DNA from: Leptospirillum ferrooxidans C2-3
GTDB lineage: Bacteria; Nitrospirota; Leptospirillia; Leptospirillales; Leptospirillaceae
Length of the DNA stretch: 64,000 bases
Assembly (NCBI RefSeq): GCF_000284315.1
Contig: NC_017094.1
Coordinates: 2,495,539 to 2,559,538 of the forward strand
Reading direction: 5' to 3'
Position 1 is the stretch's first letter, and the number at the start of each line of letters is the position of its first letter. Shown here in pieces: positions 4,218-46,354 of the stretch. Under the pieces are notes generated by a model. That model worked only from the letters and a program-made list of their open reading frames with translations. It had not been told where the DNA came from and ran no database searches. Made by a program: the position numbers and the translations under genes.

Positions 4218-5087
4218 ATGGCCATTGTCCAAACCAGTATGGAAGTTTCGCCGGAAGAGATGACCAATACCATCGGAGAAATTGCAAAGTTTTGGAAGGA
4301 TGGATCCCTTGTCGTCTATCTCGGGCCGGACCTGTTTGTTAATCCTCCGGGATTTCCGACAAGCGAACCTGAGCTCTGCGCAAGGCTTTGTGAAAAAATT
4401 ACCGTTCCCGGACGGCTCAAAGGCAAGCTTCACGAATCCGCCCAGTATATAGAGTCCTACAAGCACAGGAAAACACTCACGTCCCTGATGGGGGAGCTTT
4501 TTACAAAAGACGCGGACGAAGCTCCCGTCCATCGGATTTTATCCGAATATCCCCTGCCTCTCGTCGTCGATACCTGGTTTTCAACCATATCGTCAAAGTG
4601 TCTGGTCAGGACGGGAGAGATCCAGATCAGCGCCGTGAGCAAGGCGGAATACAGGGACAAATGGTACCGGATCGACCGGAAGACCAAAGACGGGTGGGAG
4701 CCGGCAGATCATGTCTCTCCCTCTGATCATGTCCTCTATCGTCCGTTCGGAACGATGATTCCCAATGTGGAGGTGCTGGTCTCCGACGCCGACTTTGTCG
4801 AGGTCCTGACCGAAATCGACATACAGACCCCCATTCCCGAGTGGATCAAGACCCACCGGACAGGCAAACACTTTCTTTTTCTCGGTTGCCATTTTGACGA
4901 TCAGACAACCCGGATGTTTGCCCGCCAGATCATGAAACGGTCCTCAAACCGGCACTTTGTCGTCACCGACGGGGCCGTGCTCCCAAAAGAAGGGCGTTTC
5001 TACGAGCAGGAAGGGATTTCGATTCTTCCCCTGGCTCTCAACAGCACTTTTCTCCCGAAACTCAAGGAAGTGCTCGGAAAAGACTGA
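4218..5087 (+). CDS. SIR2-like domain protein of the nif operon
   Basis: The start is taken at the ATG at 4218, eight bases after the upstream stop; the frame stays open further upstream but would overlap that gene. The 289-residue protein has the layout of SIR2_2-type Rossmann proteins: LVVYLGPDL near the N-terminus in place of the usual GAGxS loop, a central PVHRILSEYPLPLVVDTWFST segment split as the 'T.N.D' region, and a C-terminal HFLFLGCHFDDQTTRMFA block. The sirtuin zinc ribbon is absent. Such proteins occur in nif clusters of other diazotrophs, but their role is unknown; NAD-linked control of nitrogenase is only a guess. Confidence 0.65.
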   Translation: MAIVQTSMEVSPEEMTNTIGEIAKFWKDGSLVVYLGPDLFVNPPGFPTSEPELCARLCEKITVPGRLKGKLHESAQYIESYKHRKTLTSLMGELFTKDADEAPVHRILSEYPLPLVVDTWFSTISSKCLVRTGEIQISAVSKAEYRDKWYRIDRKTKDGWEPADHVSPSDHVLYRPFGTMIPNVEVLVSDADFVEVLTEIDIQTPIPEWIKTHRTGKHFLFLGCHFDDQTTRMFARQIMKRSSNRHFVVTDGAVLPKEGRFYEQEGISILPLALNSTFLPKLKEVLGKD

Positions 5088-7691: not shown

Positions 7692-8906
7692 ATGATCGAG
7701 GAGGGAACAGAAGTCCATAACAAGGCGGATTCGGGTTTCGATCCTGTCTTTGTCGATACGACCATTCGTGATGGCGGACAGTCGCCTGGGGTTTTCTTTG
7801 ATCGCCCCACCAAAATGGTCATCGTTACCACCCTTGCAAGAATAGGCGTTCGGGAAATCGAGGTCGGAACTCCCTGTCTGGGAGACCACGAGGTCGAGGA
7901 TCTCCGGGCCTTGCTTTCCCTTCCGGTTCCGGTCGAACTTTTCCCGTGGCTGCGACCACTCGATACCGATTTTGAGACGGCACTGACGCTCGGTTTCAAG
8001 AGGGTCCATGTCTCTTTTCCCACATCGGATGCCCATCGGGCCTCAGTCCAGAACATGGGGCAGCCGGACATTATCGAGCGGGTCCGGAAAACCGTTCTCA
8101 AACTCTCAGGCGAGGGGTGCCGGGTCTCGATCGGACTTGAAGACGGATCGAGGGCCCCCATGGATTTTCTGAAGGAGTTCATCGCCGCCGTCCGGGAGTC
8201 CGGGGGAATCCGGGTACGTTACTGCGACACAGTCGGAAAGCACCATCCGGCCGAACTGATTGGAAGAATTGAGGAGATTTCAAAAGAGGGTCTTCCGATC
8301 GAGATCCACTGCCACAATGATTTGGGTATGGCGACCGCCAATACGGTTGCCGCTTATCATTCCGGTGCCCGGTATCTCTCCACTACAGTGACCGGTGTCG
8401 GAGAGCGCGCAGGAAATGCGGCCATGGAAGAGGTGGCCTTTGCCCTGGCCTGCGAAAGGGGAGATCCGTCGCTTCCCGAATCCTCAACGATCGACCTTCC
8501 TGGACTTGCCCATATTTCCCGATGGCTTTATGGGGCTATCCGGAGAACCCTCTCTCCCTATCGACCGGTGGTCGGCTCGCGAATCTTTCATCATTCCTCG
8601 GGAATTCATGTCGACGGGGTCATCAAGGATCCCGCCAATTATGAGCTTTTCCCCCCCGATCTTGTGGGTTCCAAGCGAAAAATCATCGTGACCCACCAGA
8701 CAGGCCGGGCCGGGATCAAAAATGTTCTGGAACGCATGGGATATCGGCCGTCGAAAGAGATTCTCGACCGGCTGGTTCCCCTTGTGAGGGAAGAAGGATG
8801 GAAACTCAAGGGAATTGTTCCGGCACAGACGATTCTGAACCAGTTCATGGCCATCCTGGATTCGAACGAGGGACGATTCCAGGAACCACTGGGACACAGG
8901 CTATGA
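7692..8906 (+). CDS. nifV: Homocitrate synthase NifV
   Basis: This 404-residue enzyme of the HMG-CoA-lyase-like (DRE-TIM) family condenses acetyl-CoA and 2-oxoglutarate to homocitrate, the organic ligand of FeMo-cofactor. It has VDTTIRDGGQSPGV at residues 18-30, IEIHCHNDLGMATANT in the middle (metal-binding HxH), and GVGERAGNAAMEEV after it. The C-terminal region is short, without the leucine-feedback domain of LeuA. A clearly different leuA is present at 56868, so the two roles are split. Context next to hesA and modABC supports NifV. Confidence 0.92.
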   Translation: MIEEGTEVHNKADSGFDPVFVDTTIRDGGQSPGVFFDRPTKMVIVTTLARIGVREIEVGTPCLGDHEVEDLRALLSLPVPVELFPWLRPLDTDFETALTLGFKRVHVSFPTSDAHRASVQNMGQPDIIERVRKTVLKLSGEGCRVSIGLEDGSRAPMDFLKEFIAAVRESGGIRVRYCDTVGKHHPAELIGRIEEISKEGLPIEIHCHNDLGMATANTVAAYHSGARYLSTTVTGVGERAGNAAMEEVAFALACERGDPSLPESSTIDLPGLAHISRWLYGAIRRTLSPYRPVVGSRIFHHSSGIHVDGVIKDPANYELFPPDLVGSKRKIIVTHQTGRAGIKNVLERMGYRPSKEILDRLVPLVREEGWKLKGIVPAQTILNQFMAILDSNEGRFQEPLGHRL

Positions 8907-33383: not shown

Positions 33384-33929
33384 TCAGGAGGAAGAAACGA
33401 GAAGCACCGTGGCAGGTCCTGTTCCGGTATTTTTCCAGTTATGGGGCTTTGTGGGGTCAAAATAGACCGCATCAAGGTCCTTCAGGGTATAGGTCCTGTT
33501 CGACTGTTCAAAAAGAATCTCCCCTTCCAGAACAATGGCAAACTCCTCACCTTCGCTTCCCGAATAGGGATAATCTCCGACCTCCCCCCCAGGATCAAGC
33601 CTTAAAAGGAAAGGCTGCATCTTTTTCTTGGAAAGTCCTCTCGCCAGAGGCTCAAGAGTGGCATGTGAAGGTGCGCTGTAGACACGGCGTCGGTCCTGTG
33701 CCGGCATCAGAACCGGATCTCCCGCTTCATCCGGTTCATCAAAAAGAACGGTGATGGGAAGATGAAGAGCCGCGGTAATCTTTTCAAGGGTGGCAACGGA
33801 AGGAGACACCTGTGAAGACTCGATCTGGGACAGGGCGCTGGGAGAAATGCCCGCGGCCAACGCAAGCCCCCTCAGGGTCATTTTTTTTTCCAAACGAAGA
33901 TTTCGGATTCTCTCACTGACTTTCTGCAT
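33384..33929 (-). CDS. XRE-family regulator with C-terminal cupin domain
   Basis: This 181-residue regulator has an N-terminal helix-turn-helix at residues 5-60 (MTLRGLALAAGISPSALSQIE, as TLRGLALAAG and SPSALSQIE). A cupin barrel occupies about residues 105-178 (GEEFAIVLEGEILFE, DAVYFDPTKPHNWKNTG). Cupin regulators of this type usually sense a small metabolite. It is divergent from the CdhB-like genes. Its own promoter overlaps an inverted repeat whose core recurs in the other promoter, so it is the natural candidate to control that operon and itself. No cognate ligand can be deduced. Confidence 0.9.
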   Translation of the reverse strand: MQKVSERIRNLRLEKKMTLRGLALAAGISPSALSQIESSQVSPSVATLEKITAALHLPITVLFDEPDEAGDPVLMPAQDRRRVYSAPSHATLEPLARGLSKKKMQPFLLRLDPGGEVGDYPYSGSEGEEFAIVLEGEILFEQSNRTYTLKDLDAVYFDPTKPHNWKNTGTGPATVLLVSSS

Positions 33930-33954
33930 GGAAGAAGTCTAGATGATCAGTGGT

Positions 33955-33967
33955 AACAGATTCAAGT
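33955..33967 (+). repeat. 13-bp element, copy 1 (XRE promoter)
   Basis: AACAGATTCAAGT here recurs exactly, in the same orientation, at 34377-34389 in the promoter of the divergent operon. In this copy it is flanked as GTAAC-N8-GTTAC. Two exact copies of a 13-mer in 430 bases is unlikely by chance, and both overlap core promoters. Confidence 0.6.
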
Positions 33968-33992
33968 TACAGAAAAAATTGATCATGGACAA
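33964..33992 (-). promoter_or_regulatory. Candidate sigma-70 promoter of the XRE-cupin gene
   Basis: Read on the - strand, TTGTCC (33992-33987) and TAACTT (33969-33964) are 17 bases apart, about 35 bases before the start codon. The -10 box lies inside the inverted repeat GTAAC-N8-GTTAC at 33953-33970, so a bound repressor would block it. Confidence 0.5.
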
Positions 33993-34371
33993 TCCCCGGA
34001 AGACAAATAGGCGGTTATTCCACTCCCCCAGCACTCTTTTTATGGACAAAAATCCTCTTTATGAATCTTTGAAGGAATAGAACCTTCCAATGAACATTTC
34101 CACGCAAAACATGCGCTTTTCACCGGCATCATGTGGTTCAGGTCGCCTCTGTTATGGCCCCATGATGATCTGCAAGCAAAATTCAATATGTGATCATATT
34201 TTTATTCCAAAAATAATTGATAATAAAAACGGACACATTCGTATTTTAAAAGAAACACATATCCGACACAGGACACTCCGGAATTGATCAAGAAATAAAA
34301 AAATAAATGAATCAATAATACTTAATCATTATCCCCTTCAATCATTCTTCCTCCCCAAACAGTGGCCTTGT

Positions 34372-34401
34372 TTGACAACAGATTCAAGTGTTCATTATAA
34401 T
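34372..34401 (+). promoter_or_regulatory. Consensus sigma-70 promoter of the CdhB-like operon
   Basis: TTGACA at 34372-34377 and TATAAT at 34396-34401 are perfect matches, 18 bases apart. Transcription would begin near 34408, leaving about 49 bases before the ATG at 34457. This excludes the earlier in-frame start at 34388, which lies inside the promoter. Confidence 0.85.
34377..34389 (+). repeat. 13-bp element, copy 2 (CdhB-like operon promoter)
   Basis: This is an exact second copy of AACAGATTCAAGT, lying between the -35 and -10 boxes of the strong promoter at 34372-34401. It also forms AACA-N8-TGTT with the following bases. Confidence 0.6.
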
Positions 34402-34408
34402 GAACACT
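34387..34408. promoter_or_regulatory. Perfect 22-bp palindrome over the -10 box (operator)
   Basis: AGTGTTCATTA is followed at once by its exact reverse complement, centred on 34397/34398. The palindrome covers the whole -10 box and the expected start site, the classic place for a repressor dimer. The half-site TAATGAACACT occurs again at 39096-39106 before the hyf-like genes. Confidence 0.8.
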
Positions 34409-34456
34409 CAGATGAACAGAAGCATCAAGCAATTTGGCGACAACAAGGAGGGGATT

Positions 34457-35047
34457 ATGTCCAGATATCACATGCCCATCGGTGAAAGTTCTTTTCTGAC
34501 ACCAGCAGCTGCCATCGAGGGAGTCATCCTTCCGGATCCAGGGGAGTCTCTGGTTCAGGGAAGCATTTTTAACGAAGAAGAGGCTCTCATCATCGCGGCA
34601 GATAAAATACTTGCAGCCAAGAATCCCACCCTTTTTCCTGGTCCTCTCGTCATTTGGAACTGGAGCAAGGAATCACAGGAAATGGCCAAAGCCGTCAGGA
34701 AGCTTGCCGAGGCAGGAAACATGAACATTATCCCGATGACGGACTATCGGCCCAAATACCCCAAGATCAACCCGGAATCGGAAATCAATCCGAACCATCC
34801 CAATATCACAATTTGGCACAACGCCATCGATGTCTGTCTTTTTGTTGGCGTTCACTGCCATTACTCAAATATCGCACTCAAGATCATTCGCGGTGGAACC
34901 GACTGCTTCACGATTGCCCTATGCAGCTTTTCGGGGGATGACGAGGCTCATCTGACCGTTCGGGATGTCTCCCCGGAGAAAGTTGACCGTCTGTCCCAGA
35001 TTCTGCGAGAGCGAAAAGCCCATCTCTTGTCAGCATCAATGAAATAG
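34457..35047 (+). CDS. CdhB/PorE-like protein, copy 1
   Basis: The ATG at 34457 follows AAGGAGGGG. The 196-residue protein resembles the CdhB family (CO dehydrogenase beta / acetyl-CoA synthase epsilon, a DHS-like Rossmann fold): PTLFPGPLVIWNW, then DVCLFVGVHCHYSNIALKII and CFTIALCSFSGDDEAHLT, matching 'V.FLGVHYYY...L..LK....TI.I...Y.PNA...' of that family. Relatives form the fifth (epsilon) subunit of 2-oxoacid:ferredoxin oxidoreductases in reductive-TCA bacteria. No CO dehydrogenase or oxidoreductase subunits lie in this window, so the partner is unknown. A paralogue follows at 35473. Confidence 0.7.
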   Translation: MSRYHMPIGESSFLTPAAAIEGVILPDPGESLVQGSIFNEEEALIIAADKILAAKNPTLFPGPLVIWNWSKESQEMAKAVRKLAEAGNMNIIPMTDYRPKYPKINPESEINPNHPNITIWHNAIDVCLFVGVHCHYSNIALKIIRGGTDCFTIALCSFSGDDEAHLTVRDVSPEKVDRLSQILRERKAHLLSASMK

Positions 35048-35091
35048 AAACGCATCTCTCTTTAAGGAATGTCTTTCAGCGAGGAGATCTG

Positions 35092-35433
35092 ATGAATTCT
35101 GAAAAACGTCAGCAGTCCGTTTCTCCCGAAACCAGAGCTTCCACTTTTTCGGTCTGGACGGATGAAGGGGGAAACCCGCAATTTCCCACCGAGAAGCAGT
35201 CCGCGATCTCAAGTGACTATTTTGTTTGGATCGATCCCTCAAAGTCCACAGAAGTCGGGCAATGGGTTCTCCTCTCCACCCAAAACAGGATGACTTTTGA
35301 CAGGATCATTCATGGAAAAAGAGGTCTCTCGCTCGAAAAGAACCCGCTCTGGAGCCTCTCGGATCCGGACATTTACGTATTGGGTGTTGTGATTGCCGGA
35401 TTGGAGTGGATTGACATTGCTGAAGGAGATTGA
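35092..35433 (+). CDS. Unknown protein between two CdhB-like genes
   Basis: This 113-residue ORF starts at an ATG with GAGGAGATCTG just upstream. The N-terminal 40 residues are polar and probably disordered. The rest (DYFVWIDPSKS, VGQWVLLSTQNRMTFDRII, YVLGVVIAGLEWIDIAEG) looks like a small globular domain. There is no cysteine, signal peptide or membrane helix. I do not recognise a family. It lies 44 bases after the first CdhB-like gene and 39 before the second, so the three are one operon and probably work together. Confidence 0.7.
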   Translation: MNSEKRQQSVSPETRASTFSVWTDEGGNPQFPTEKQSAISSDYFVWIDPSKSTEVGQWVLLSTQNRMTFDRIIHGKRGLSLEKNPLWSLSDPDIYVLGVVIAGLEWIDIAEGD

Positions 35434-35472
35434 TTCACAAAACATGTAACCCAATAATGAACAGGAGGATTG

Positions 35473-36054
35473 ATGAAGCCATACCAGGTTTCAAGGGGAC
35501 CAGAAGGATTTCTTCCACCAGCTGCGGCCATGATGGGCGTAACGTTGCCAGTCGAAGGGCAAGGATCCATTTTGGGGCTGAGGGTTTTTGAGGATCAGGC
35601 TATTGAAGAGGCCGCCAGACAACTGGCCCATGCAAAAGTTCCCACCATCTTTCCGGGTCCGCTTGTGCTCTGGGGATGGAATGCTCAAGCCATTGAAATG
35701 GCCAATGCCGTGGCACATGTTGCTGAAACATGTGGGATCAACATCATACCAATGCCGGACTATCGCCCAAAATACCCAAAGATTGATCCAGAAGCTGAAA
35801 TCAATCCGAATCACCCCAACCTGACGATCTGGCATAACAAAATTGACGTTTGCCTGTTCGTCGGGGTCCATTGCCACTATTCCAATCTGGCCTTGAAAAT
35901 CATTCGTGGCGGGACAGGCTGCTATACCATTGCCCTTTGCAATTTTGCCGGGGACGAAGAAGCGAATCTCACGATTCGTGATCTGACTTCAGAAAAAATT
36001 CTGAAAATTGGTGAAAATATCCAGAAAATGAAAAGGGACTCCCGCCGGTTTTAA
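35473..36054 (+). CDS. CdhB/PorE-like protein, copy 2
   Basis: The ATG at 35473 follows AGGAGG. The 193-residue protein is a paralogue of the product at 34457: over an 81-residue block starting DYRPKYPKI I count 65 identical residues, while the N-terminal 60 residues differ more. The same VCLFVGVHCHYSNLALKIIR core is present. Tandem copies that diverged mainly at the N-terminus could be two non-identical subunits of a heteromer or serve different partners. A strong terminator follows. Confidence 0.7.
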   Translation: MKPYQVSRGPEGFLPPAAAMMGVTLPVEGQGSILGLRVFEDQAIEEAARQLAHAKVPTIFPGPLVLWGWNAQAIEMANAVAHVAETCGINIIPMPDYRPKYPKIDPEAEINPNHPNLTIWHNKIDVCLFVGVHCHYSNLALKIIRGGTGCYTIALCNFAGDEEANLTIRDLTSEKILKIGENIQKMKRDSRRF

Positions 36055-36086
36055 CTCTGCCATACCCATCCTCCCATGATTCTTGT

Positions 36087-36124
36087 GAGAAAAGCTCTGC
36101 GGGATAAACGGCGGAGCTTTTCTC
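36087..36124. terminator. Bidirectional intrinsic terminator
   Basis: GAGAAAAGCTC (36087-36097) pairs perfectly with GAGCTTTTCTC (36114-36124) around 16 bases that add a GC/GC pair. It lies between the second CdhB-like gene and the convergent pyrF, and the A/T-rich outer stem can serve either direction. Confidence 0.75.
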
Positions 36125-36149
36125 AACAGGCAGAAGCGAAAACGCTAGT

Positions 36150-39146: not shown

Positions 39147-41186
39147 ATGATTTTTTCCTTCACTCCGTTAGACCTATCTCTTTCGGCCGTTGTGTTCTGG
39201 TTTGTTTTGGCCATCCTGTCGCTCCTTCTCTCACAAGTCCCCAGCGTACCCCTCTATCAGATGTTTCTTCCGAGTGCGAATGGAAGCCTTCTGCTGGCGA
39301 TATCCGGCTTTACTGGCTTAAATGGATCTCCCCAGACCAAAATCATCCCTTTCGGCCTTCCAGGTCTTCCCTTTCACCTTCATCAGGATGCCCTTTCTTC
39401 TTTGTTCATTCTGCTCATAGGGTTCGTCTCCTTCGGCATTTCTGTCTTTGCGGCAGGGTATTTTAAAGAAGATCACCATAGGTCCGATCTGGGTTTTTTG
39501 TCTTTCCAGTATAATCTTTTCTTGATATCCATGACACTCGTTCTTCTTTCGGCCGATTCATACCTTTTTCTTCTTTCATGGGAATCGATGGCCATGACAT
39601 CATACTTTCTGGTTGTGACCGACCACGAAAAGGATGTGGTCCGGCAGGCGGGATTCCTCTATTTGCTCCTTGCCCATATCGGTACACTCGCCCTTTTCCT
39701 GTCCTTTGGGATTCTCTCCTCGGGAGGAAGTCTGTCGGACTTTTCCGGATATGCTTTCGATACCATGGCAAAAGGGCACCATTCTTCTTTTCTTATGGCC
39801 ATGGCCTTTTTTCTGGCTTTTTTTGGATTTGGGGCCAAAGCGGGAATTTTTCCCCTTCACATCTGGCTTCCCGAAGCCCACCCCGTCGCTCCGTCACCCA
39901 TATCGGCACTCCTCAGTGGCGTGATGCTCAAAGTCGCCATCTATGGAATGATCCGGGTCTGGTTCAACCTGATCGGCGTCCAGAATCTGTCCTGGAAATG
40001 GGGAGCGGTCGTTCTTGCGATTGGGTTGTTCACCGCCCTTTTCGGAATTCTGTTTGCCCTCACCCAAAATGATCTGAAACGTCTTCTGGCCTATTCGTCG
40101 ATCGACAATATCGGAATCATTGTCATGGGGCTGGGACTTTCGGTCATTTTTTTTGGAACAGGTCACCCCATTCCGGGGGCACTCGGTCTGATCGCAGCCC
40201 TTTACCATAGCCTCAATCACGCGGTCTTCAAGGGGATCCTCTTTCTGGGTGCCGGCTCCATCCTCCACTCATCCGGTGAAAAAAATCTGAACAGGATGGG
40301 GGGGCTTATCCGCTCAATGCCCCAGACAGCAGCTCTTTACCTGGTCGCGATCCTCTCCATCTCGGCAATCCCCCCGCTCAATGGTTTCGTATCGGAGTGG
40401 CTCACCTTCCAGACCGCCCTCTCGGTCCCTCTTCTCGATACCGGCGGCATTCGCAGTCTTGTCGCCCTCTCGGCGGCCGGACTCGCCCTGGTCAGCGCCT
40501 TGACAGCGATGTGTTTTGTCAAAGTCTACGGTATTGGATTTTTGGGAGTTCCCAGAACTCAACCGCTACCCGAACGTCATGAAGCAACGGTTTTTGAACG
40601 GCTCGGGATGCTTTGGCTTGCTGCGGGATGTCTGGCACTGGGCTGTCTCCCGACGTTCGTCGTCAGCCACCTTGAAACCATATCCGTCTCCCTGACAGGT
40701 GAAGGTCTGGGTAAAGACGCAAACGGAGCCGGATGGCTCTGGCTTGTTCCCGAATCCGCAAAACGGGCCAGTTATAGTCCGTTTATCTTTCTTGTCGTGA
40801 TTGTCAGCGCAACAATGTTGACGTTTTTTGCAATCCGATTCCTGTTTAACAAAAAAACGCGCAAAACATCCTCCTGGAACTGTGGATATCCCGTGCGAAC
40901 CTCCCGGATGCAAGATACGGCCGACTCGTTCTCACAACCCATCCGGCATTTTTTTTCTCCGGCTTACAGGATGACAAGACATCTTCCCCTGCCAACCGAT
41001 GAGAAACCCATTTTTTTTGTGGAAATTGATGACCAAAGCTGGTTTTTATTCTATCGGCCAATCCAGAAACTGGTGGAAAAATTATCCGCCCTTTTCGGAA
41101 AACTCCAGACAGGAAAAATTTCCGTCTATCTTACCTATAGTTTTTTGACACTCCTGTTTCTTCTCTTTCTGGTCAAATCACCATGA
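39147..41186 (+). CDS. hyfB: HyfB/NuoL-like proton-channel subunit of Ehr-type complex
   Basis: The 679-residue antiporter-like protein has about 14-16 hydrophobic segments. Channel motifs include FLLSWESMAMTSYFLV (Glu in TM5), AKAGIFPLHIWLPEAHP and YSSIDNIGIIVMGLGL, with a Lys/His in the discontinuous helix around YHSLNHAVFKGILF. The C-terminal cytosolic part has SWNCGYPV and MQDTADSFSQPI as in HyfB/HycC. It would pump protons or sodium driven by the peripheral subunits. It starts the six-gene operon. Confidence 0.88.
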   Translation: MIFSFTPLDLSLSAVVFWFVLAILSLLLSQVPSVPLYQMFLPSANGSLLLAISGFTGLNGSPQTKIIPFGLPGLPFHLHQDALSSLFILLIGFVSFGISVFAAGYFKEDHHRSDLGFLSFQYNLFLISMTLVLLSADSYLFLLSWESMAMTSYFLVVTDHEKDVVRQAGFLYLLLAHIGTLALFLSFGILSSGGSLSDFSGYAFDTMAKGHHSSFLMAMAFFLAFFGFGAKAGIFPLHIWLPEAHPVAPSPISALLSGVMLKVAIYGMIRVWFNLIGVQNLSWKWGAVVLAIGLFTALFGILFALTQNDLKRLLAYSSIDNIGIIVMGLGLSVIFFGTGHPIPGALGLIAALYHSLNHAVFKGILFLGAGSILHSSGEKNLNRMGGLIRSMPQTAALYLVAILSISAIPPLNGFVSEWLTFQTALSVPLLDTGGIRSLVALSAAGLALVSALTAMCFVKVYGIGFLGVPRTQPLPERHEATVFERLGMLWLAAGCLALGCLPTFVVSHLETISVSLTGEGLGKDANGAGWLWLVPESAKRASYSPFIFLVVIVSATMLTFFAIRFLFNKKTRKTSSWNCGYPVRTSRMQDTADSFSQPIRHFFSPAYRMTRHLPLPTDEKPIFFVEIDDQSWFLFYRPIQKLVEKLSALFGKLQTGKISVYLTYSFLTLLFLLFLVKSP

Positions 41187-42169
41187 CACCCATCAACCCC
41201 GATCCACACCAGTGGATCACGGATCTTCTTTTCAAAAGCATTGATGAGCTGTTCCAGACAGCCTTTGTGATCTTTTTTGCCCCCATATTCCTCGGCTGGA
41301 TCAATATGTGGCGCTCCTGGCTGCAAAATCGAAAATCCGCCGGAATTCTTCAACCATACCGGGACCTTTTCAAATTTCTGGGAAAAGAAGCGGTCGTCGC
41401 TACCGGTGCTTCTCCTCTTTTCCGGATGACTCCCTACATTGTTTTTGGCTCCATGGGACTGGCAGCGGCACTTGTTCCGGCTGTGACGACCGCTCTTCCT
41501 TTTGGACCGGCAGCTGACGCCATCGCTCTCGTTGGGGTGTTTTCCCTGGCGCGCATTTTCATGGCCCTGTCCGCCATGGATATCGGAACACCCTTTGGCG
41601 ACCTGGGAGCCAGACGGGAGATGATGATCGCTTTTCTGGCCGAACCGGCCACAATGATGATCCTGTTCACGGCATCGCTGATTTCAAGGTCCACCTCCCT
41701 TTCCACCATTGCTGAAACACTTGGAAGCCGACATTTTACCCTTTACCCCAGCCTCGTTTTTGCCACGACATCCTTTTTCCTCATCATTCTGGCTGAAAAC
41801 TCAAGACTTCCCATCGACAATCCCTCCACACACCTCGAACTCACCATGATCCATGAGGCAATGCTCCTGGAATATTCCGGGCGACATCTCGCATTGATGG
41901 AATGGGGAAGTTCCATCAAGCTTCTGGTCTACTTTTCGATCATCATTTCATTCTTTCTTCCATGGGGTATCTCCCATGGAGCATCCTTCCAGGGTTTATT
42001 GGCAGGATTCGCCTATCTTATTCTCAAGCTTTCCATTCTGGCTCCATTGTTGGCCATTCTGGAGTCAACGCTTGCCAAACTCCGGCTTTTCCGGGCGCCA
42101 GAATTTCTGGCCGCAGCCTACCTTTTGGCCGTGATCGCGTTTTTATCCCACTTCATCCTGGAGGTATGA
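41183..42169 (+). CDS. hyfC: HyfC/NuoH-like membrane subunit
   Basis: The 328-residue protein overlaps hyfB by 4 bases. It has eight or so membrane segments, GRHLALMEWGSSIKLLVYF and FLGWINMWRSWLQNRKS near the N-terminus, and the charged loop motif LAENSRLPIDNPSTHLELTM, cut here as ENSRLPIDNP. This loop in NuoH/HycD connects quinone- or cluster-linked changes to the membrane arm. Linked to the same Ehr-type complex. Confidence 0.88.
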   Translation: MTPINPDPHQWITDLLFKSIDELFQTAFVIFFAPIFLGWINMWRSWLQNRKSAGILQPYRDLFKFLGKEAVVATGASPLFRMTPYIVFGSMGLAAALVPAVTTALPFGPAADAIALVGVFSLARIFMALSAMDIGTPFGDLGARREMMIAFLAEPATMMILFTASLISRSTSLSTIAETLGSRHFTLYPSLVFATTSFFLIILAENSRLPIDNPSTHLELTMIHEAMLLEYSGRHLALMEWGSSIKLLVYFSIIISFFLPWGISHGASFQGLLAGFAYLILKLSILAPLLAILESTLAKLRLFRAPEFLAAAYLLAVIAFLSHFILEV

Positions 42170-42850
42170 ATGTCACTTGCCCATGAATCTCCCTTCGGGA
42201 TTGAAATGGTCAATCTTCTCGGAGCCTTCATTCTTCTTGTCGCCTTTGCAATGCTTGCATCGAGGAGAACCCTTTCCCTGATCCGCCTTTTTGCCTTCCA
42301 GGGATTTTTTCTTTCCATGAGCATTTTTCTGGTGGCGTTTTTATCCGGAGAATCCAATCTCTACTATTCCGCCTTGTTTACTTTGGCACTGAAGGTCATC
42401 CTGCTTCCATGGATCCTCCGGGACCTTTCTAGACGACTGAATATTGGTGGAGATATCGAAACACTGGTCAATGTCCCCGTGACCATGATCATCGGCATCG
42501 GAGTGGTGGTTTTTTCCTTTTCCCTGGCGGAACCTATCCTGCAAGCGGCAAGCACCGTCACCCGAAGTCTCATCGGGGTTGGCCTTGCCTGCGTTCTATT
42601 GTCCTTTCTGGTGATGATCACCCGGAAAAAAGCCATGACCCAGATCATCGGCTTTCTCTCCATGGAAAATGGACTTCTTTTTTCCGCCACCAATGCCACC
42701 TATGGCATGCCCATGGTGGTTGAACTGGCGATTGCTCTTGACGTTCTGATCGGCGCGATTATTTTTGGCATCTTCTTTTTCCAGATACGCGAGACATTCG
42801 AAAGTCTTGATCTCAAATATTTTGAAAAGCTCAGGGAAGAGGAGGGCTAA
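42170..42850 (+). CDS. hyfE: HyfE-like membrane subunit
   Basis: The 226-residue protein has about six or seven hydrophobic helices in the HyfE arrangement, with MVNLLGAFILLVAFAML at the start and a NuoK-like segment (FLSMENGLLFSATNATYGMP) with a membrane glutamate. It lies with no gap between hyfC and hyfF. HyfE-type subunits are present in Hyf, Ehr and related complexes but not in complex I. Confidence 0.82.
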   Translation: MSLAHESPFGIEMVNLLGAFILLVAFAMLASRRTLSLIRLFAFQGFFLSMSIFLVAFLSGESNLYYSALFTLALKVILLPWILRDLSRRLNIGGDIETLVNVPVTMIIGIGVVVFSFSLAEPILQAASTVTRSLIGVGLACVLLSFLVMITRKKAMTQIIGFLSMENGLLFSATNATYGMPMVVELAIALDVLIGAIIFGIFFFQIRETFESLDLKYFEKLREEEG

Positions 42851-44298
42851 TGCTGGTTTTCTCCGTTCTCGCAATACCACTCATCGCATCTGTTCTTTTG
42901 GCCCTTATGGGTCACAAGCCCTGGGCTTATCTCCTGAATGCCGGAATGACTCTCCTCACATTCATCGACTCCCTGCTGCTTGCCAAAAAAGTTCTGGAAT
43001 CGGGACCCATCCTGGTTTTCAGGGAAACGTTCTATGTCGATTCTTTCAATATTTTCCTGATTTCCCTGACCGCTTTCGTAGGGCTGACAACAGCGATCTT
43101 TTCTGGACCCTACATGAAAATCGAGGAAAAAAAAGGCAAGGTCACACCCAAGATCCTGAGGCTTTACCACAGCGCGTACCAGATCTTTCTCTTTACAATG
43201 CTATTGGCTCTTTTCAGCAACAACCTCGGGATCCTATGGGTCTCAATCGAGGGAGCGACTCTGGCAACGGTTCTCCTCGTCAGCCTCTACCGGACCCGGG
43301 CCAGTATCGAAGCCGCATGGAAATACTTCATCCTGTGCGGTGTCGGAATTTCCCAAGCGCTTTTTGGGACGATCCTTTTATATTTTGCAGCGGAAAAGAT
43401 CCTGGGCCCAGGAGGAGGCGCCCTTCTCTGGACGCATCTTTTCCAGATACGATTCCAGCTTGAGCCCACTGTCCTGAAGATCGCTTTTGTCTTTCTCCTG
43501 GTGGGATATGGAACCAAGGTAGGCCTCGCTCCGCTTCACAACTGGCTTCCCGATGCCCATGCGGAAGGCCCGACACCAATATCGGCGGTGTTGTCGGGAC
43601 TTCTTTTAAATGTCGCATTGTATGCTCTTGTCCGTTGCAAGGTCCTGGTTGACGGAGCCCTCCATACCAATCTTGCAAGTGAGATGATGATGGGATTTGG
43701 ACTTCTGAGCATGCTTGTCGCTGTTTTCTCCATGCTCAGAAGGAAGGATGTCAAAAGACTGTTTGCATACTCCTCCATCGAACACATGGGGATTGCAACA
43801 TTTGCTTTTGGATTGGGGGGAGCACTGGCAACATTCGCCGCACTTTTGCATATGACCGTCCACAGCCTGACAAAATCCTCCATCTTTTTTTCCGTGGGCC
43901 ATGCAACCCAGATCAATGGAACCCAGCAGATGTCCCAGATCCAAGGCCTCCTCAAAAGAATGCCCAGGCTCGGCTGGGGTCTTCTGCTCGGAAGCTTTGC
44001 CATTCTTGGCATGCCTCCTTTTGGAGTCTTCGCCAGTGAATTCATTGTCCTGACCGTTGCCATGAAACAGGTTCCCTGGACAACCCCCATCCTTCTTTTA
44101 TGTCTTGCTGTCGCGTTCGGAGTCATTTTTTTCCGGGTTGGAAATATGGTCCTTGGGGAAGGGGTCAAAGAAAATCTTTCCCACCCGCCGGCTCTTTTTC
44201 CGGTCTTTCTCCATCTGGCCCTCGTTCTTGTCCTGGGAATCTTTATTCCGCCATTTCTCGCTCACTGGTACCAAAACGCCTCGCGCTTCATTGGCTAG
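42850..44298 (+). CDS. hyfF: HyfF/NuoN-like proton-channel subunit
   Basis: The 482-residue antiporter-like subunit has LWVSIEGATLATVLLVSLY (TM5 glutamate), YGTKVGLAPLHNWLPDAHAEGP, SYSSIEHMGIATFAFGLG in the form YSSIEHMG, and HSLTKSSIFFSVGHATQI with its channel lysine. It is the second ion-translocating unit of the complex. One base overlaps hyfE. Confidence 0.88.
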   Translation: MLVFSVLAIPLIASVLLALMGHKPWAYLLNAGMTLLTFIDSLLLAKKVLESGPILVFRETFYVDSFNIFLISLTAFVGLTTAIFSGPYMKIEEKKGKVTPKILRLYHSAYQIFLFTMLLALFSNNLGILWVSIEGATLATVLLVSLYRTRASIEAAWKYFILCGVGISQALFGTILLYFAAEKILGPGGGALLWTHLFQIRFQLEPTVLKIAFVFLLVGYGTKVGLAPLHNWLPDAHAEGPTPISAVLSGLLLNVALYALVRCKVLVDGALHTNLASEMMMGFGLLSMLVAVFSMLRRKDVKRLFAYSSIEHMGIATFAFGLGGALATFAALLHMTVHSLTKSSIFFSVGHATQINGTQQMSQIQGLLKRMPRLGWGLLLGSFAILGMPPFGVFASEFIVLTVAMKQVPWTTPILLLCLAVAFGVIFFRVGNMVLGEGVKENLSHPPALFPVFLHLALVLVLGIFIPPFLAHWYQNASRFIG

Positions 44299-44308
44299 GA
44301 GAATTCCT

Positions 44309-45814
44309 GTGGAACAAGAAACCGATTTTCCCAAAGATTCCTTCATCGAAGTAGAGGACGTAGACAGTGAAGGGTATGTCCGGCTTGCACAAAACATGCA
44401 TCTCTCAAAAGCTCGTCTCCTCTCGATCTGGGCATTTGTCGGCGAAGATCTCTCCCTCGTCTTCTCCTCTTACTTCAACGGCAATAAACTCATGGTTGGC
44501 CGGTTATCCCTTCCACCAGAGGTCAATCACATCCCGTCGATCGCCCCATTTTTCCCGGGCGCATCCAGGATGGAACGGGCCATACAGGATCTTTGGGGGA
44601 TTTCTGTTCCCGACAACCACGACGGACGCCGATGGCTGGACCATGGATACTGGGAGAAGGCTCCTTTGACAGGGAGGGATCTTCCGGAGCATCCGGAAAA
44701 GGGGGATTACCCATTTGTCAGGGTGGAAGGAGAAGGGGTTCACGAAATCCCGGTCGGTCCTGTTCATGCCGGAATGATCGAACCCGGCCATTTCCGTTTT
44801 CAGGTGGTGGGAGAAAAGGTGCTTCGAATGGAAGAACGTCTGGGGTATACCCACAAGGGGATCGACGGTCTTTCCCGGGACCTTCCCTGGACGAAGGGGG
44901 TCAAGCTTGCCGGGAGGGTCTCCGGAGATACAACAGTGGGCCACTCTCTGGCGTATTCATTGTCTGTAGAAGCGGCTATCGGGATGGAAATCCCCAAAAG
45001 AGGCCAATTTTTGAGAGGGTTGCTCCTTGAGCGGGAGAGAATCGCAAATCATCTCGGCGATCTTGGAGCATTGGCCAATGATGCCGGGCTTTCTTTTGGT
45101 CTTTCCCAGTTTCTGATCCTGAAAGAGGATTTCCTGAGACAGAACAAAACCCTGTTTGGCCATCGACTTCTTATGGATCTTGTTCTTCCCGGTGGGGTCG
45201 TCAAAGACCTTGCCCCTGAGGCCATTCTCGCAATGTCCGAAGAAGCTGCGCGGATTCTTCGGGAAATCGAAATTCTCCAGACGATCTTCGATGAACACGG
45301 GGGGCTTCAGGACCGATTTTTTGGAACAGGGATCCTTCTTCCTGATATCGCAGAAAAAATGGGTCTTTGTGGTGTTTGCGGAAGGGCGAGCGGTCAGCCA
45401 TCGGACTTGAGAAGCCTCTGGAAATTGCCTCCTTATGACGAAATGGACTTCACTCCGGCGCTTGAAACCGGAGGAGATGTCCGGGCACGGGTGGCGGTCC
45501 GGTTTTTTGAAGTCAGGGAGTCATTGAGGCTCGTCAGGGAAATTCTTCTGAAGTTGCCCGGAGGTGAAATCTTTACAGAGCCTCCCAGCGGAGTGAAGGG
45601 ACGGGAAGGAATCAGTGCAGTCGAGGGTTGGCGTGGCGAGATTCTCTGCTGGTCAAGACTTGGGGGCGGGAACATTGTCATGGCCAGCCACTTCCATGAC
45701 CCTTCCTGGATCCTTTGGCCGGCACTTGAGATGGCCATACCCGGAAACCTTGTGGCCGATTTCCCCCTGATCAATAAATCATTCAACCCAAGCTATTCGG
45801 GCCACGACCTGTAG
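44309..45814 (+). CDS. hyfG: HyfG/NuoCD-like large subunit lacking all Ni ligands
   Basis: The GTG at 44309 follows TAGGAGAA and gives 501 residues; the frame is open back into hyfF. The N-terminal 150 residues are NuoC-like (AIQDLWGISVPDNHDGRRWL). The rest is the hydrogenase-large/NuoD fold with LRMEERLGYTHKGID. Where hydrogenases have RVCGIC the protein reads RVSGDTTVGH (S205 and T208 for Cys). The C-terminus is NPSYSGHDL in place of DPCYSCTDL. Both cysteine pairs are gone, so it cannot bind Ni-Fe. This is the mark of Ehr (energy-converting hydrogenase-related) complexes. Confidence 0.88.
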   Translation: MEQETDFPKDSFIEVEDVDSEGYVRLAQNMHLSKARLLSIWAFVGEDLSLVFSSYFNGNKLMVGRLSLPPEVNHIPSIAPFFPGASRMERAIQDLWGISVPDNHDGRRWLDHGYWEKAPLTGRDLPEHPEKGDYPFVRVEGEGVHEIPVGPVHAGMIEPGHFRFQVVGEKVLRMEERLGYTHKGIDGLSRDLPWTKGVKLAGRVSGDTTVGHSLAYSLSVEAAIGMEIPKRGQFLRGLLLERERIANHLGDLGALANDAGLSFGLSQFLILKEDFLRQNKTLFGHRLLMDLVLPGGVVKDLAPEAILAMSEEAARILREIEILQTIFDEHGGLQDRFFGTGILLPDIAEKMGLCGVCGRASGQPSDLRSLWKLPPYDEMDFTPALETGGDVRARVAVRFFEVRESLRLVREILLKLPGGEIFTEPPSGVKGREGISAVEGWRGEILCWSRLGGGNIVMASHFHDPSWILWPALEMAIPGNLVADFPLINKSFNPSYSGHDL

Positions 45815-45847
45815 GAGTGTCAGGATAGCCGTTCAGATGGAGCATAC

Positions 45848-46354
45848 GTGCATCATATTCTTCTCAGGATCCTCAAAACCGGCATAGTCACCCAAAAAAC
45901 GCCCGAAACTCAGGAGGAGTTGAGAGATCTTTCAAAAAAACTGTTGGAACGGGGGTTCGGGCGATTTGGACACAGCCTTTCCATCCGCCACCTCGATGCA
46001 GGCTCCTGTAATGGGTGTGAGATCGAAATCGGAATGCTGAATAGTCCCTATTTCATGCTTGAGCATCTGGGATTCAAATTTGTCGCCTCTCCTCGGCATG
46101 CAGACCTTCTCCTTGTCACAGGCCCTGTCTCCCTTCATATGAGGCAAGCTCTCCTCGACACTTTTGACGCAATGCCGTCCCCGAAACTCGTTGTTTCGGT
46201 GGGAGATTGCGGATATGACTGTGGAATATTCAAGGGAAGCTATGCTTTGGCTGGTGGCGTCTCGGAGGTCATTCCGGTCGATCTTCATATTCCGGGTTGT
46301 CCACCGGAGCCTCTGGACCTGATCAGGGGACTGTTGACAGCGGTCGGCGGCTAA
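45848..46354 (+). CDS. hyfI: HyfI/NuoB-like [4Fe-4S] subunit
   Basis: The 168-residue protein starts at GTG after ATGGAG. It keeps all cluster N2 ligands: [25 protein letters not shown] and IPGCPPEP, with IPVDL before the last. It joins HyfG to the membrane arm. No HyfA/HyfH-type ferredoxin subunit is encoded beside it, so the electron entry route is missing from this locus. Its end overlaps the convergent EAL gene by 4 bases. Confidence 0.9.

Follow-up and report, generated by a model that had tools for sequence, protein, structure and literature searches.

Why two paralogous proteins of a CO dehydrogenase-related family should flank a small partner protein, under a promoter of their own and beside a divergent gene for an XRE-cupin regulator, is the question raised by a locus of Leptospirillum ferrooxidans C2-3, within the 64-kb stretch of DNA that was analysed (the window), which forms the end of a single contig of 2,559,538 bases. 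An earlier note placed this locus at 33384-36124, and these coordinates are correct. The note had also observed that no oxidoreductase or CODH subunit gene adjoins the locus, and none is adjacent to it within the 64-kb window. Here the two paralogues are called delta1 and delta2, the protein between them X, and the three genes together the trio; g1 denotes the genus of this genome and g3 a second genus of the Leptospirillaceae that carries the trio.

Genes and conservation of the trio

The features of the locus are collected in Table 1. Both flanking proteins match PF02552 (CO_dh) well above the curated cut-off of 21 bits, with 4.3e-40 and 137.7 bits for the delta1 open frame (34388-35047) and 3.2e-37 and 128.3 bits for that of delta2 (35470-36054). 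The true starts are likely the ATG codons at 34457, which is preceded by the ribosome-binding site AAGGAGGGG, and at 35473. The two proteins share 68 identical residues in their best 81-column window, in line with the 65 of 81 counted earlier. The divergent gene encodes a protein with HTH_3 (5.5e-13) and Cupin_2 (9e-14) matches. The operon had been credited with its own strong promoter and terminator; the promoter is indeed the sole perfect sigma-70 match of the stretch, whereas the 3′ hairpin (15-nt arms, 93% complementary, 10-nt loop, no T-run 3′ of it) is plausible but not proven as the terminator.

Table 1. Coordinates of the features of the trio locus (positions in the window)
Feature	Position	Strand	Basis
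XRE-cupin gene (HTH_3 + Cupin_2), PuuR-like, proposed trio regulator	33384-33929	-	Pfam
XRE-cupin promoter, TTGAAT - 18 - TAGACT	33936-33965	-	Same element at the orthologue in ten genomes
Trio sigma-70 promoter, TTGACA-18-TATAAT, 12/12	34372-34401	+	-35 and -10 kept in ten genomes
Operator O1, GTGTTCATTATAATGAACAC, a perfect palindrome of 20 bp that covers the -10 box	34388-34407	strandless	Conserved in trio promoters
delta1 (T1), PF02552, 196 aa	34457-35047	+	Pfam; clade T1 100/99
X, 113 aa, S24-fold (LexA/CI/UmuD'-like), without HTH and Ser-Lys dyad	35092-35433	+	Profile and model
Operator half-site AATAATGAACA ahead of delta2	35453-35463	+	Second operator of genus g1
delta2 (T2), PF02552, 193 aa	35473-36054	+	Pfam; tree
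Hairpin 3′ of the operon, candidate terminator, no U-tract	36086-36125	+	Sequence

Between two congeners, the dN/dS ratios (YN00) were about 0.10 for delta1 (dN 0.05, dS 0.51), 0.29 for X, 0.04 for delta2 (dN 0.04, dS 1.09) and 0.03 for the XRE-cupin gene. These low ratios indicate that the four genes are not chance open frames and that all of them are under purifying selection.

X was searched for in 61 genomes and in the whole Leptospirillaceae family (21 genomes). All 11 genomes that bear X belong to this family, and in every one of them X lies between a delta1-type and a delta2-type protein; the order delta1-X-delta2 is thus intact in 11 of the 21 family genomes. Neither X nor the trio was found outside the Leptospirillaceae, and when 84,980 species were scanned, each represented by one genome, this group alone was returned. 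The delta1 gene of G011 is broken across two contigs; the open frame around that of G010 needs care, with a stop in the upstream extension. In g3 the flanks of the trio differ, with a 6PGD-like gene upstream and genes downstream that were named recC/recB-like from reading the sequences, not from a family search; these different flanks indicate that the trio is kept as a block at a different place. The earlier note had proposed to judge its module idea by whether the three genes are neighbours elsewhere, and they are neighbours in all 11 genomes with X. Its description as a self-contained unit holds as well, given this conservation and a promoter with a dedicated operator (see below), and delta1-X-delta2 is a conserved unit more defined than first noted.

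PF02552 proteins are delta subunits of the pentameric POR and OGOR in Aquificaceae and have been proposed as such also for Leptospirillum (PMC10052474), the role of this subunit in aerobic reverse-TCA oxidoreductases being open and "intriguing" according to the Aquifex authors (PMC10052474). The earlier label "CdhB/PorE-like" is therefore right as to the CdhB family, whereas the literature makes the family the delta subunit PorD/ForD, not PorE. Like PorD/ForD of the five-subunit enzymes of Hydrogenobacter, Aquifex and Leptospirillum (PMC10052474, PMC2607301), the trio deltas lie well above the PF02552 cut-off, and they share a core motif with the canonical copies of the Leptospirillaceae. They also share the Pfam family of CdhB, the archaeal CODH/ACS epsilon subunit, but no CODH/ACS genes lie nearby, and no solved structure matched the delta family by sequence, including no solved CODH chain at E 1.

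PF02552 is represented by four genes in this genome. The two canonical delta genes (2.229-2.231 Mb) precede genes for an antiporter-like subunit, DabA and a P-II protein, while the tandem oxidoreductase cluster at 2.407-2.415 Mb comprises two four-subunit sets and contains no delta gene, all four PF02552 genes lying outside it. With four delta genes for two tandem oxidoreductase sets, the trio deltas are an extra pair, and unlike the canonical ones they belong neither to the oxidoreductase cluster nor to the Dab operon. No oxidoreductase gene lies beside the trio at any locus among the genomes that have it; most canonical delta copies in Leptospirillaceae are likewise not beside alpha, beta, gamma and epsilon genes, and the tandem oxidoreductase cluster of other genera ends with one canonical copy. 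Levican et al. (2008) described stand-alone forD copies in L. ferriphilum (PMC2607301), which by comparison of their neighbourhoods are of the canonical class and not the trio.

In a maximum-likelihood tree, delta1 and delta2 form one group (89/91), within which the delta1 clade (100/99) contains both genera, suggesting with moderate support an ancient divergence in which the duplication predates the separation of these genera. A set of 21 canonical delta proteins has 89 invariant positions, of which delta1 keeps 63, delta2 77 and both together 62; the trio members retain most of the run DYRPKYPKI..E.EINP.HPN.TIWH..ID.C.F.GVHCH, the shared invariants arguing that they still bind the partner or ligand of the canonical proteins. 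Besides their own clade, the tie to X and the operator, the trio deltas are set apart from canonical PorD/ForD by a consistent change of GHED to GD[DE]E; delta1 has in addition lost 26 of the 89 invariant positions, among them the N-terminal GPE..LPP motif.

Several observations concern the canonical genes. In both g1 and g3 the canonical delta genes adjoin genes for a DabB-like antiporter subunit, DabA and a P-II protein (2229287-2238147 in this genome), a linkage that places an oxidoreductase delta subunit beside an operon for inorganic-carbon uptake. The DabA beside them is long, with about 1150-1200 residues vs. 747 profile positions; DabA is present in 21 of 21 family genomes and was discarded as a shared trait of those with the trio. 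Two small genes, one of them DUF1841, separate the two oxidoreductase sets (8063-8770 of that locus), a position that orf2 and orf3 occupy in L. ferriphilum.

Protein X, an S24 fold without the dyad

The earlier note had assigned X to no known family, which stands for the single sequence, as it matched no Pfam family, but not for the profile and the predicted fold. With a profile of ten X sequences, the first five PDB matches were lambda CI (best E 0.08) and the sole Pfam match was S24 (E 0.21, one member), neither being significant alone. A single LexA sequence did not match the X profile, a family alignment being required. Using hhalign against 24 S24 domains that were taken from these genomes and aligned, X reached a local score of 31.9, vs. 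a maximum of 18.5 in 200 column shuffles, 11.8 and 12.7 for reversed controls and at most 17.6 for 24 other families; the full global alignment was weaker (21.0).

The model built from the window sequence was poor (pLDDT 61.7), whereas a relative as the lead sequence gave pLDDT 77.0 and pTM 0.71. With this better model, Foldseek ranked lambda CI, UmuD, LexA and 186 CI first (best E 4.5e-3), with a probability of 1.00 for the lambda CI C-terminal domain. In a further structural comparison the top 19 rows were all S24 domains with Z from 7.8 to 5.2, the highest value being obtained with UmuD' and lambda CI (1f39: 76 residues, rmsd 2.9); these Z values are middling alone, and the S24 call rests on the agreement of sequence profile and fold. 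At the position of the catalytic Lys of the lambda motif FTFKK every X member has G, D or A, and the Ser position is variable. No N-terminal DNA-binding domain was found, the model having about 18 low-confidence residues ahead of the fold. Profile and model together thus identify X as a protease-dead S24 (LexA/lambda-CI/UmuD') domain without the DNA-binding part, which unlike the S24 peptidases stands alone. Such a domain beside metabolic subunits is an unexpected use of the SOS-control and phage-repressor fold. What is new here is this fold without the dyad, and a palindromic trio operator that resembles the PuuR site; the unit itself is built of known parts.

The operator and its candidate regulator

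In 10 genomes the trio promoter bears the palindrome TGTTCATTATAATGAACA, which overlies the -10 box. The arrangement, TTGACA or TTGACT, about 9 nt and a site like TGTTC-ATTATTAT-GAACA, stands ahead of delta1 in 10 of 10 genomes read, with 25 summed mismatches vs. 70.9 expected (0 of 1000 shuffles). Most operons have a second copy, ahead of X in most g3 genomes (weak in G009) and ahead of delta2 in g1; in the E1-X spacers the summed mismatches were 58 vs. 90.2 (0 of 1000 shuffles). Genome scans allowing up to 3 mismatches returned the trio as the best or joint-best match in 5 of 6 trio genomes, while a backward control pattern gave 0-2 matches per genome. Other operator-like sites lay at unrelated genes or inside genes, and a regulon beyond the trio was rejected. 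Given its position over the -10 box, binding to the operator should repress.

The natural candidate for the regulator, judging from sequence comparison, is the XRE-cupin protein. Its best NCBIfam match is PuuR, the E. coli XRE-cupin repressor, at 67.2 bits vs. an equivalog cut-off of 211 bits, and its identity to E. coli PuuR is 25% over 171 aa (E 2e-19). The two share HTH plus cupin and a similar recognition-helix region, but here there are no putrescine genes. TATAATGAACA is common to the O1 half-site and the E. coli puuD site, the puu region having AAAATATAATGAACA at the puuD start and AAAATATAATGACCA upstream, and the trio operator differs from the PuuR site in being a perfect palindrome in this genome. 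Part of this likeness is trivial because the half-site overlaps the -10 hexamer; the PuuR site consensus was compared with the E. coli sequence alone.

The earlier note had further proposed autoregulation, with a promoter element shared between the XRE-cupin gene and the operon. A 13-bp element, AACAGATTCAAGT, does occur twice (33955 and 34377); however, it forms the -35 region of the XRE-cupin promoter and, for the operon, the spacer between -35 and -10. It was rejected as a shared operator since it is not conserved and is absent in the sister genome. The trio operator is absent from the XRE-cupin promoter in ten genomes (at best 6 mismatches), which leaves no support for autoregulation, and in g3 the regulator gene lies elsewhere. 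In ten genomes about 6 nt separate the XRE-cupin promoter from the ATG, and the mRNA of this gene is probably leaderless.

Orthologues of the XRE-cupin gene were found in 11 of 19 Leptospirillaceae genomes searched and adjoin the trio only in g1. They occur in 9 of 10 trio genomes tested vs. 2 of 9 without the trio (G004, G014), a difference confounded by descent; the trio genome in which the gene was not found, G017, is 66% complete. The unlinked gene in g3 lies near glyQS and a gene for a 2Fe-2S ferredoxin or a CDGSH iron-sulphur protein, surroundings that may reflect an earlier target connected with redox or Fe-S status. G002 has a second, truncated copy about 1.4 kb from the intact gene (4498-4776 of its locus).

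Candidate roles of the trio

The reading that we favour, tentatively and a little short of an even call, is that the trio supplies repressor-controlled alternative delta subunits, with X as a scaffold partner, for CO2-fixing oxidoreductases. The PuuR-like XRE-cupin repressor would bind the palindrome over the -10 box, together with the second site within the operon in most genomes, and would block transcription of the trio until a small ligand occupies its cupin domain. Derepression would yield two alternative delta subunits, which may replace or join the two canonical deltas in the five-subunit reverse-TCA enzymes pyruvate:ferredoxin and 2-oxoglutarate:ferredoxin oxidoreductase. The idea of the earlier note that the trio might swap or modulate oxidoreductase subunits is thus far plausible. 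X, as a non-self-cutting LexA/CI-type domain that probably dimerises, could serve as scaffold or chaperone for delta1 and delta2. An alternative delta pair for the same enzymes, made when needed, would be the simplest account. Against this stand the lack of an oxidoreductase gene beside any trio, the linkage of the XRE-cupin gene in one genus only, its occurrence without the trio in G004 and G014 and its apparent absence from G017, the missing operator in its promoter, the partly trivial likeness to the PuuR half-site and the invariants lost from delta1.

Alternatively, the trio might form a neofunctionalised stand-alone complex, off the oxidoreductases, in which the delta fold binds a nucleotide or acyl-CoA ligand. 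We consider this unlikely overall and yet a serious rival, as the trio is without linkage to oxidoreductase genes, X is obligatory in it (11/11), GD[DE]E is specific to it and delta1 has lost the N-terminal motif. However, both deltas retain the 62 canonical invariants, their dN/dS is near 0.1 or below, and canonical deltas are often away from their oxidoreductase too, so that the missing linkage is weak evidence. Rather improbable in our view is a novel kind of metabolic switch, a heteromeric delta1-X-delta2 sensor or adaptor that would alter the CO2-fixing oxidoreductases, e.g., in O2 tolerance or in direction, in response to a signal that the XRE-cupin repressor senses. X might instead be part of the switch, as a CI-type co-repressor or antirepressor acting on the XRE regulator or its DNA complex while the deltas sense the acyl-CoA or CO2 state; its repressor C-terminal fold and its place between operators of the same operon would suit this role, which is nevertheless highly improbable given that the XRE-cupin protein has its own cupin sensor domain, that X evolves faster than it and that no sign of contact between them was seen.

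The identity of the regulator is a separate matter. That another regulator reads the operator, the adjacency of the XRE-cupin gene in one genus being incidental, is a substantial though not the favoured possibility: the gene is unlinked from the trio in g3 and occurs without it in two genomes. Its distribution, with the one gap in an incomplete genome, and the pairing of a PuuR-like protein with a PuuR-like site speak against this, the former being confounded by descent. Two further associations were dismissed. Nitrogen fixation was not decisive as a shared trait, nifH exceeding the cut-off in 9 of 11 genomes with the trio (all but G009 and G017) vs. 4 of 10 without it, or 5 of 10 if a partial match in G020 is counted. 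The third, three-gene oxidoreductase of this genome was rejected as the trio partner, as its high-scoring alpha gene is present in G004, which has no trio, and was not found in the trio-bearing G008 and G009.

In this lineage, which consists of aerobic acidophiles, a second delta pair is retained under separate regulation and with a dedicated partner, and comparing both pairs in one organism would directly test the contribution of the delta subunit. Elsewhere in the window, 39147-46354 encodes a membrane complex of the complex-I/group-4-hydrogenase type, with two Proton_antipo_M proteins, NADHdh, a 49/30-kDa fusion and a 20-kDa protein; its large subunit seems to be without the paired CxxC nickel ligands, suggesting that it is probably not a hydrogenase but an energy-converting hydrogenase-related complex.
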